This document shows positions 1,951-29,608 of a DNA stretch of 29,608 nucleotides, in pieces (within the stretch, counting starts at the first letter, position 1; every line of letters starts with the position of its first letter). The translations under genes were made by a program, and so were the position numbers. The notes below the pieces were generated by a model. It did not search any database and was not told the origin of the DNA. It was given only the letters and a program-made list of their open reading frames with translations. Source of the DNA: a virus; the IMG/VR virus record IMGVR_UViG_3300031251_000976, positions 1 through 29,608 of that record; one strand, written 5' to 3'.

Positions 1951-1990
1951 CCTCCTCGCCCGCAAGCGGGAGAGGGCTGGGGAGAGGGGA
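1921..1990 (+). repeat. Dispersed palindromic repeat, copy A (tandem pair)
   Basis: Two degenerate units lie in tandem. The first (1921-1946) encodes the helicase C-terminus. The second (1951-1990) has the core CGCCCGCAAGCGGGAGAGGG followed by a G-rich tail. The same core and tail recur at 16133, 21229, 21984 and 22062, always in this orientation. Confidence 0.8.
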
Positions 1991-16132: not shown

Positions 16133-16203
16133 AACCCCCTCTCCCGCATTTAATTTGATCCCCTCTCCCTCTGGGAGAGGGTAAGGGAGAGGGCGGGGTT
16201 GGG
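16133..16203 (+). repeat. Dispersed palindromic repeat, copy B (between sheath and tube)
   Basis: A partial unit (16133-16147) is followed by a full one with hairpin CCCTCTCCCTCTGGGAGAGGG (16161-16181 region) and tail TAAGGGAGAGGGCGGGG. It occupies the gap between the sheath stop (16215) and the tube start (16105). In the leftward mRNA it would form a GC-rich hairpin ahead of the tube ribosome site, possibly affecting relative sheath and tube levels. Confidence 0.75.
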
Positions 16204-20717: not shown

Positions 20718-21206
20718 TCACTTAGGTTTAACGGCCAAAGCCGCAGTAATCAGGTCAACGCCTGGGTGTGATGCTTGATACTCGACTGCGGCCTGGTACA
20801 GCTCCGCATCCTCGGGCGACATGCTGTATCCGGCTGGCGTCGAGAAACTCGCTGCTTGTGCAGCTGCACCCTCTTTCGGCTTCCTCAGCTCACCCAGGCT
20901 CACCTGCACCGGCAGCGCGGCCAGCAGACCTTGCGCCAGTTCCAGCGGCGTTTTGCCGTGGTTTTCGTCGCCGGCGGCAAAAGCGGCCGAAGGCTCCTTG
21001 CGCTCTGCCAGTGCCGTCAGGATTTCCGTCACCGCCAGCTTTTGCACCGGCAGCAAACGCCCCTCGGACACCAGCTTGTCGGCATACGCCGCAAACTCGG
21101 CGCCCTGGGCCGCCTTTTCCTTTTCCGCCAGGGCGGCCTCGCGCGCGGCAAGTTCCTGCTCGCGCAGTTTCAACGCGGCGTCATCCGCCGCTGCTTGTCC
21201 AGACAT
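20718..21206 (-). CDS. Nested capsid scaffold protein (Mu gpZ type), internal start
   Basis: An in-frame internal ATG at 21206, preceded by AAAGGAG six bases upstream, would give a 162-residue protein identical to the C-terminus of the protease. It begins MSGQAAADDAALKLREQELA and continues as an Ala/Glu-rich charged helix (AAREAALAEKEKAAQGAEFA), the composition expected of a scaffold. In Mu, gene Z lies within gene I and encodes the scaffold in just this way. The strength of the internal ribosome site against the poor one at 21923 suggests more scaffold than protease, as assembly requires. Confidence 0.75.
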   Translation of the reverse strand: MSGQAAADDAALKLREQELAAREAALAEKEKAAQGAEFAAYADKLVSEGRLLPVQKLAVTEILTALAERKEPSAAFAAGDENHGKTPLELAQGLLAALPVQVSLGELRKPKEGAAAQAASFSTPAGYSMSPEDAELYQAAVEYQASHPGVDLITAALAVKPK

Positions 21207-21923
21207 TTCAACTCCTTTCGTGGATGTGCTCCCCACGCCCGCAAGCGGGAGAGGGGCAGGGGGTGAGGGTAGGGGTGCTACTTGTTGCGAAAATGCGGCT
21301 TGTGGTTGATCCCCTTCTTCTTCCTGCACGGCCGCCTCGGCCAGCGTGTTGACATCCCAATCCGGCAACACGCGGTCGGCGGTTTCCACGCCTTTCTCGC
21401 CGATCATCCAGTCGCGCAAACTGCGGAACAGCCGCGCGACCACGCGATCCTCGTAATCGAAAGCCACGCTGAACTCCACGCTGCCGTCATCGCTCGCCGC
21501 CAGCGCCACCGGCGCCATGCCAGGCACCGCAGGCGGCACGCCGCCCAGGAAGCCGACGTGCTGCAGGTAATGTTTTCCAGGTTTGGGATTGGCCGGGGAA
21601 TCCGGCAGGAACATCTTGATGCTGATCTTGTTGTAGCGCTTCTCGCCGATGGCCGCCGCCGCGAATTCCGGCGTCACCTCGCTCTTCATCACCTGCAGGG
21701 TCTCGCCGGATTTACCCAGCGCCCCCACATGGCCATAAGCCGGTGAATCCGTCTTCGGGTGGCCCACCACAATCGGCGCGGCAAAAACGGCCGGATCGTA
21801 ACTCTCCGCCAGCTCATCAATCACGCTGGGTTGAAAAGTCAGCTTGCGCCCATCGTTGGCAACAAAGCTGCCGGGCTTGAAAGCATCAAAAGGCTTGAGC
21901 GGTACAAGGTTCGGTGTGTTCAT
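20718..21923 (-). CDS. Phage prohead protease-scaffold precursor (Mu gpI type)
   Basis: 401 residues from the ATG at 21923 (MNTPNLVPLKPFDAFKPGSF). The N-terminal domain contains PIVVGHPKTDSPAYGHVGAL and FLPDSPANPKPGKHYLQHVG followed by FLGGVPPAVPGMAPV, hallmarks of Mu-like prophage I proteases that mature the prohead. The C-terminal part doubles as scaffold. Residues about 216-232 (PLPSPPAPLPLAGVG region) are encoded by a dispersed palindromic repeat, copy C, lying between the two domains without breaking the frame. Normally G lies directly upstream. Here the upstream DNA is repeat-rich and G is 6 kb away on the other strand. The start has no clear ribosome site, and GGCACAGTTTGTGCC forms a small inverted repeat just upstream of it. 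Confidence 0.87.
   Translation of the reverse strand: MNTPNLVPLKPFDAFKPGSFVANDGRKLTFQPSVIDELAESYDPAVFAAPIVVGHPKTDSPAYGHVGALGKSGETLQVMKSEVTPEFAAAAIGEKRYNKISIKMFLPDSPANPKPGKHYLQHVGFLGGVPPAVPGMAPVALAASDDGSVEFSVAFDYEDRVVARLFRSLRDWMIGEKGVETADRVLPDWDVNTLAEAAVQEEEGDQPQAAFSQQVAPLPSPPAPLPLAGVGSTSTKGVEMSGQAAADDAALKLREQELAAREAALAEKEKAAQGAEFAAYADKLVSEGRLLPVQKLAVTEILTALAERKEPSAAFAAGDENHGKTPLELAQGLLAALPVQVSLGELRKPKEGAAAQAASFSTPAGYSMSPEDAELYQAAVEYQASHPGVDLITAALAVKPK
21229..21278 (+). repeat. Dispersed palindromic repeat, copy C (inside protease gene)
   Basis: CGCCCGCAAGCGGGAGAGGG core at 21236-21255 followed by the tail GGTGAGGGTAGGGGTGC. On the opposite strand it is translated in frame as a Pro/Leu-rich linker. 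It ends about 23 bases upstream of the nested scaffold start, leaving that ribosome site intact. Confidence 0.8.
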
Positions 21924-21983: not shown

Positions 21984-22028
21984 CACCCCTCGCCCTCCGG
22001 GAGAGGGGTGGGGGTGAGGGCGCTTTTA
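21984..22028 (+). repeat. Dispersed palindromic repeat, copy D
   Basis: CCCCTCGCCCTCCGGGAGAG followed by GGGTGGGGGTGAGGGCGC. It is a shortened-core version of the same element, in the same orientation, about 60 bases upstream of the protease start. Confidence 0.75.
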
Positions 22029-22061: not shown

Positions 22062-22111
22062 GATCCCCTCTCCCGCAAGCGGGAGAGGGTTAGGGTGAGG
22101 GCACTTTCAAA
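22062..22111 (+). repeat. Dispersed palindromic repeat, copy E (best-preserved copy)
   Basis: The perfect palindrome CCTCTCCCGCAAGCGGGAGAGG (22067-22088 region) is followed by the tail TTAGGGTGAGGGCAC. This is the most regular copy and serves as reference for the other four. Confidence 0.85.
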
Positions 22112-22198
22112 GCAGGAAAATACAAGCAAGGGATGCAATCAGCGAAAACCCCTCCGCCCGCGCACCCCAAACCCCCTCTAAAACCGTTTTATAAAACT

Positions 22199-22549
22199 TT
22201 ATACGGCCTCAAAACAACAAACGGGTGCCCTTGTAGCCACCCGTCCGGCAAAACCCGCCTGATGCGCTTTCTTGTGCGAGCACATCCTGCGCTCCACCTT
22301 GTCCTTCTTTTTCGAATCCTTCAGCGTCTGCCACTGCATGTTGCTGGGGTCATCCGCACCCCCCGCACACAGCGGCTTGACATGATCCATCACATACCCC
22401 GGACAAGACCCCTTGGTCTTCCCGTTCGCCGGGCAAGGATGCGCCGCCTTGAAATCCCGCTTCGCCGCATAACTCCGATACTGCCCGGCATCGGCTACCC
22501 CACTAAACAAAATGGCCAACATGGCCAATATGAAGCCGCAACTATTCAC
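22199..22549 (-). CDS. Small HNH endonuclease-like protein with signal peptide
   Basis: 116 residues starting at a GTG that overlaps the preceding stop (GTGA). Residues 1-21 (MNSCGFILAMLAILFSGVADA) look like a signal peptide. The core contains CPGYVMDHVKPLCAGGADDPSNMQWQT (49-75, shown here as a motif with D55, H56 and N70), the HNH-type arrangement of small proteobacterial HNH proteins. Cysteines at 39, 49, 61, 90, 111 and 112 would suit disulfides in the periplasm. It ends an operon with the repressor and a membrane protein, so it may be expressed in the lysogen. A role against incoming DNA is speculation. The C-terminus after residue 100 looks loosely conserved. Confidence 0.7.
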   Translation of the reverse strand: MNSCGFILAMLAILFSGVADAGQYRSYAAKRDFKAAHPCPANGKTKGSCPGYVMDHVKPLCAGGADDPSNMQWQTLKDSKKKDKVERRMCSHKKAHQAGFAGRVATRAPVCCFEAV

Positions 22550-29200: not shown

Positions 29201-29608
29201 ATGCAAGACGAAATCCCCATCCCCGACACCGAAATCGAACTCACTTTCGTCCGTGCCCAAGGTGCGGGCGGGCAGAACGTCAACAAGGTTTCCAGTGCGG
29301 TGCATTTGCGCTTCGATATCGGGGCGTCATCATTGCCGGAGGCGGTGAAGGAGCGGCTGTTGAAGTTGCGCGACCAGCGCATCACGGCCGACGGCGTGGT
29401 CATCATCAAGGCGCAGCGCTACCGCACCCAGGAGGCGAACCGGAGGGATGCCATCACCCGACTGCATGCGCTGGTGAGCCACGCGGCACGGCCGCCGCTG
29501 GTACGGCGGGCGACCAAGCCGACTTTGGGGTCGCAGAAGCGGCGGATGGAGGGCAAAGTTCAGCGCGGGCGGGTCAAGGCATTGCGGGGGAAGGTGGATG
29601 AGCAGTAA
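29201..29608 (+). CDS. arfB: Alternative ribosome-rescue factor B (peptidyl-tRNA hydrolase)
   Basis: 135 residues, close to E. coli ArfB/YaeJ (140). RAQGAGGQNVNKVSSAVHLR carries the GGQ motif (23-25), which hydrolyses peptidyl-tRNA on stalled ribosomes. The C-terminal tail is basic and lysine/arginine-rich (RRATKPTLGSQKRRMEGKVQ, then RGRVKALRGK), as needed to enter the empty mRNA channel. It lacks the tRNA-recognition domain of RF1/RF2, which separates it from release factors. The TAA ends at the last base of the window. It is a host gene. Confidence 0.93.
   Translation: MQDEIPIPDTEIELTFVRAQGAGGQNVNKVSSAVHLRFDIGASSLPEAVKERLLKLRDQRITADGVVIIKAQRYRTQEANRRDAITRLHALVSHAARPPLVRRATKPTLGSQKRRMEGKVQRGRVKALRGKVDEQ

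Follow-up and report, generated by a model that had tools for sequence, protein, structure and literature searches.

The gene for the head maturation protease of a Mu-like prophage contains, in frame, a short palindromic repeat that the published sequence pattern identifies as a diverged copy of the triplex motif (TM), formerly called PIT (potential intrastrand triplex). Quite probably, the protease-scaffold gene acquired this copy within the phage lineage and has tolerated it since, as an in-frame insertion that does nothing specific. The motif was described in Escherichia coli by Holder (2015, PMC4666352), who gave 23 copies in strain MG1655, and TM/PIT elements had been reported earlier by Hoyne (2000, 2002), as cited in that paper. 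Triplex formation in vitro was shown for E. coli copies, which were described as always intergenic and without any link to phages, transposons or plasmids (PMC4666352).

The prophage and its host

The stretch of DNA that was analysed (the window; IMGVR_UViG_3300031251_000976) is 29,608 nt long and consists of a Mu-like prophage flanked by the host genes yoaA (1–1950) and arfB (29201–29608). Because these two genes are adjacent in the closest genomes, with gaps of 47 to 90 bases (L203 and L202), the DNA between them is an insertion. According to the YoaA protein, whose best matches reach 87%, the host belongs in or near Methylophilaceae. The similarity of yoaA to its relatives ends at position 1916; the final codons resemble one incomplete half of a TM, and directly behind the stop codon there is a further TM (1916–1988). 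The left host/prophage junction is thus set among TM sequences.

No terminase and no portal were found among the phage open reading frames tested between 3986 and 27492, and the MuA-like protein of the window covers just positions 130–529 of the 696 in its family. The prophage may be incomplete, although a compared sequence, L003, keeps the same gene order around the protease. A 35-base stretch at 22169–22203, whose minus strand contains TTTTATAAAACGGTTTTAGAGGGGGTTT, shows no difference at all between the window and L003 (100% identity), although identity in its surroundings is only about 70%; it is possibly a regulatory site.

Identity of the repeat

The strict TM/PIT pattern used for identification was CCCTCNCCC-N3-6-GGGNGAGGG-N3-GGGNGAGGG, with the consensus taken from PMC4666352. 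A tolerant scan found five TMs in the window, two of them exact, and none in 100 dinucleotide shuffles (Table 1). The same scan of 654 kb of related phage loci gave three weak TMs only. All five window copies (1953–22101) are oriented on the plus strand. They follow the E. coli elements in order and sequence (CCCTCNCCC, a loop, GGGNGAGGG, a short spacer and GGGNGAGGG), two of them exactly.

The in-frame copy does not fit the strict pattern, as it has CCCACGCCC as one arm and a second spacer of 5, but it does pass a relaxed test of three homologous arms in class II order with one arm change allowed. It is therefore a diverged member of the TM class. It also differs from the copies of E. coli K-12 in lying within a phage gene rather than between genes. 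The first-pass annotation was right in recognizing a palindromic repeat at this place. The 20-mer that it named, CGCCCGCAAGCGGGAGAGGG, is part of a longer unit, composed of a stem, a loop, a second arm and a GGGTGAGGG tail.

Table 1. Coordinates of the protease-scaffold gene, its insert and the TM copies in the window
Feature	Position	Strand	Basis or remark
Mu-type head maturation protease with nested scaffold, 401 aa	20718..21923	-	phrog_976, E=1.2e-90, residues 9-398; homologue alignments
In-frame insertion, approximately 54 nt, residues 216-233 (APLPSPPAPLPLAGVGST)	21225..21278	-	Length compared with L001
Shine-Dalgarno AAAGGAG of nested scaffold	21212..21218	-	13 nt downstream of element in mRNA
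Nested scaffold start codon, M240	21204..21206	-	M conserved in L001; predicted scaffold helix 236-286
In-frame diverged TM/PIT	21232..21269	+	CCCACGCCC-GCAAGC-GGGAGAGGG-GCAGG-GGGTGAGGG; one arm mismatch, second spacer 5 not 3
TM copy, intergenic upstream of protease	21987..22020	+	Tolerant scan; second spacer 4
Exact TM copy, intergenic upstream of protease	22066..22101	+	Strict consensus match
Exact TM copy, intergenic near tail sheath gene	16161..16193	+	Tolerant scan, strict consensus match
TM copy directly after yoaA stop, left host/prophage junction	1953..1988	+	Tolerant scan; 1 arm mismatch

The insert in the protease-scaffold gene

The gene shares with the Mu I/Z protease-scaffold genes the arrangement of a protease and a nested in-frame scaffold within one open reading frame. 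Its membership in this family is indicated by the phrog_976 profile match, the conserved M240 with its Shine-Dalgarno sequence and a two-domain structural model. Compared to other members, it is ordinary except for the inserted linker. Counted by hand, the distance from Q200 to M240 is 41 residues here and 23 in L001, the closest relative (69% identical), which makes the window gene longer here by 18 residues (54 nt). The insertion expected from the first-pass annotation at about residues 216–232 corresponds to residues 216–233, which L001 lacks, and the element itself is translated from the minus strand as PSPPAPLPLAGVG (residues 219–231). The insert is likewise absent from two more distant Methylophilaceae homologues (L210 and L211). 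An initial genome scan with the protease alignment gave no matches. Because the relatives are distant, the exact edges of the insertion are uncertain, and no empty site is similar enough to define them or to reveal a target duplication.

In the AlphaFold model, residues 1–203 form the protease domain, the stretch 206–234 has a pLDDT below 50, and a long helix at 236–286 represents the scaffold; the insert is therefore located between the two domains, as had been proposed from the sequence. Linker length is highly variable across homologues, and Burkholderia-type members have long Pro-rich linkers that are unrelated and contain no palindrome. These observations indicate that the position is a permissive one. 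The inserted peptide was found in none of about 80 viral homologues.

The nested start is likewise spared, in agreement with the first-pass annotation. The insert does not cover the Shine-Dalgarno sequence, and the predicted accessibility of the region from there to the AUG is 0.53 in the window and 0.50 in L001, which has no element. Folding predicted a hairpin in the mRNA at the element; blocking of the nested ribosome site by this hairpin was ruled out by the same predictions. The precise interdomain position, with the nested ribosome site following after 13 nt, together with the hairpin, could suggest that the palindrome was recruited as a functional linker that tunes cleavage between protease and scaffold or translation of the nested scaffold. 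However, this explanation is unlikely given the unchanged accessibility, the hypervariable linker and the presence of similar inserts in unrelated genes.

In-frame copies in other genes

A scan of viral contigs with the strict pattern found at least 145 TM copies in at least 120 stretches. In-frame TMs were found at about 20 places besides the one in the protease gene. In phages, TMs with a single protein family on both sides were found in MuA (phrog_310) and in portals (phrog_2662, phrog_21 and, twice, phrog_113). Further phage copies of this kind are located in genes for DksA-like zinc-finger proteins (phrog_54, two loci), GemA (phrog_286) and phrog_3193. Bacterial genomes related to the host have in-frame TMs in the genes for PurL, HrpA (two), TilS, Cas1, PrmC (two genomes) and RibD. 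The open-access papers searched on TMs and on coding palindromes contained no report of TMs in frame. Measured against the intergenic-only description in E. coli, it is new that TMs recur in frame across many genes of phages and bacteria.

For some in-frame copies, the size of the insert could be estimated. In the terminase gene, a 54-nt in-frame insert is common to five contigs and missing in relatives whose proteins are 86–90% identical; its presence in five contigs makes an assembly artefact unlikely. Comparison of MuA with relatives of 60% identity gave a gain of just 8 amino acids, or 24 nt, and there is thus no fixed insertion length. Net gains of 54, 54 and 24 nt in the protease, terminase and MuA, respectively, do not look like the product of one defined transposing unit. 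Among relatives of the L314 portal, the linker is too variable for sizing the insert, and at RibD and PrmC the site as such varies in length, which leaves the insert edges uncertain there.

By our own tally, it is the pyrimidine strand that codes for protein in 17 of 22 confirmed in-frame TMs (binomial p=0.017). All three frames are open in 68% of TMs on this strand and in 13% on the purine strand, where the GGGTGAGGG tail contains TGA; the pyrimidine-strand figure equals what is expected from composition alone (66%).

Since Mu-like phages are mosaic and other phage genes commonly contain in-frame TMs, recombination with a gene of another phage or of a host that already carried a TM could have brought the element in, with no insertion at this site. 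Such an origin is unlikely, as the protein can be aligned with L001 to the left and right of the insert and homology is broken nowhere else.

Some individual loci deserve mention. In two unrelated contigs (L247 and L263), a TM occupies the same site of the DksA-like gene, between the N-terminal helix and the zinc finger. At the PrmC loci of one genus (L477–L500), the linker before the methyltransferase domain contains, from genome to genome, differing repeat-like peptides at the same place, either of the TM type or of a FRRKSESS...DSDFRRND type, which suggests that this linker is a hot spot for coding repeats. A phage open reading frame of 2002 amino acids (L251, 6566–12571) contains several in-frame TM-type peptides.

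Comparison with REP and Rickettsia palindromic elements

Rickettsia palindromic elements (RPE) are short palindromes found in frame in many unrelated genes, to which they add a tolerated peptide, and they belong to the tagged REP-like repeats (PMC3733652). The resemblance noted in the first-pass annotation holds as one of kind, since TMs likewise recur in frame in unrelated conserved genes. Going by the published description of RPE, TMs would differ from them in sequence, length and host group, and they have no tag. REP and REPIN elements, the GTAG- or CGTC-tagged repeats associated with RAYT, are also palindromes of 20–40 bp that are sometimes present inside open reading frames (PMC3733652), but the in-frame TM has neither terminal tag and no link to RAYT was found.

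Within Methylophilaceae, TMs are rare. At least one near-strict match was present in 34 of 187 genomes, with a maximum of 12, and the nearest relatives by YoaA had 0–4 copies under such a pattern. Copying of the element into the prophage after integration by a RAYT tyrosine transposase of the host, as in active REP-type mobility, would be consistent with the occurrence of RAYT matches in 65 of the 187 genomes (41 above the cut-off) and with a co-occurrence with TMs beyond expectation (15/34, p=0.001, without control for genome size). However, several observations make this mechanism improbable. First, 19 of the 34 TM-bearing genomes have no RAYT above the cut-off, and G010 has seven TMs and no match at all. 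Second, the association weakens to p=0.08 when the comparison is restricted to genomes of 1.6 Mb or more. Third, four RAYT loci (L334–L337) contain no TM, and in the RAYT regions examined in G062 and G068 there is only a weak copy or a TM at a distance of 1.7 kb. Finally, the element starts with CCCACG and ends with GTGAGGG and thus has no GTAG tag. Membership in the RAYT type of REP was rejected on the tag, the missing RAYTs and the TM-free RAYT loci, and the RAYT connection raised in the first-pass annotation was not supported.

A naturally long linker whose likeness to the repeat is due to chance or convergence, for which the Burkholderia-type linkers would be the model, is extremely improbable and is excluded at the nucleotide level, because the TM anatomy is complete, tail included, and CGCCCGCAAGCGGGAGAGGG is present exactly at 21236–21255 and again at 1957–1976 (20/20 nt, including the GCAAGC loop), with 1 mismatch at 22070–22089, compared to 0.02 matches expected by shuffling even with up to 3 mismatches.

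Origin and significance

The preferred explanation is a tolerated insertion. A TM would have entered the protease-scaffold gene in the phage lineage and would owe its retention to three features. First, the net gain is a multiple of three. Second, the coding strand is the pyrimidine-rich one, on which stop codons are largely absent. Third, the site is a disordered linker of naturally variable length that joins the protease to the scaffold helix, and the internal ribosome site further downstream stays uncovered. The encoded Pro/Leu/Gly-rich spacer would then be nearly neutral and probably without a specific role. Points that speak against this explanation are the departure of the in-frame copy from the strict pattern, the absence of a sufficiently similar empty site, the unequal net gains among the genes compared and the apparent stability of a TM-bearing locus in E. 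coli.

By comparison of the two genes, the insertion is younger than the split from L001-type phages. The first-pass annotation had placed mobility of the repeat after the arrival of the phage; in this form the claim could not be upheld, as the relatives are too distant to place the insertion after integration into this host. With low confidence, we favour spread of TMs by a host-encoded process other than RAYT, such as template switching or the capture of folded single strands.

A wider view is somewhat more doubtful than not: TM/PIT repeats could be widespread, coding-compatible mobile DNA of Proteobacteria and their phages that is spread by a non-RAYT activity and has repeatedly lengthened interdomain linkers of conserved proteins, among them the capsid protease, portal, terminase, MuA, Cas1, PrmC, RibD and PurL. 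These repeats have hitherto been treated as intergenic DNA-structure motifs. Their presence in frame in phage structural genes and conserved housekeeping genes makes them a source of protein linkers, akin to the coding palindromes of Rickettsia but across a far wider range of bacteria and viruses. Empty-site comparisons, such as that of the 54-nt terminase insert, may provide a handle on the mechanism by which TMs spread.

In E. coli, no precise empty sites were present among the matches listed for frlR-yhfS and zntA-tusA. The zntA-tusA region, where one TM is located, is conserved almost in full in 5365 of 5426 genomes, a count that refers to the locus and not to the TM itself; this suggests that TMs can be old and static. 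Two TMs of E. coli K-12 (L501, 1102–1136 and 8247–8279) lie inside the annotated cryptic prophage CP4-6, contrary to the published statement that these elements have no link to phages.
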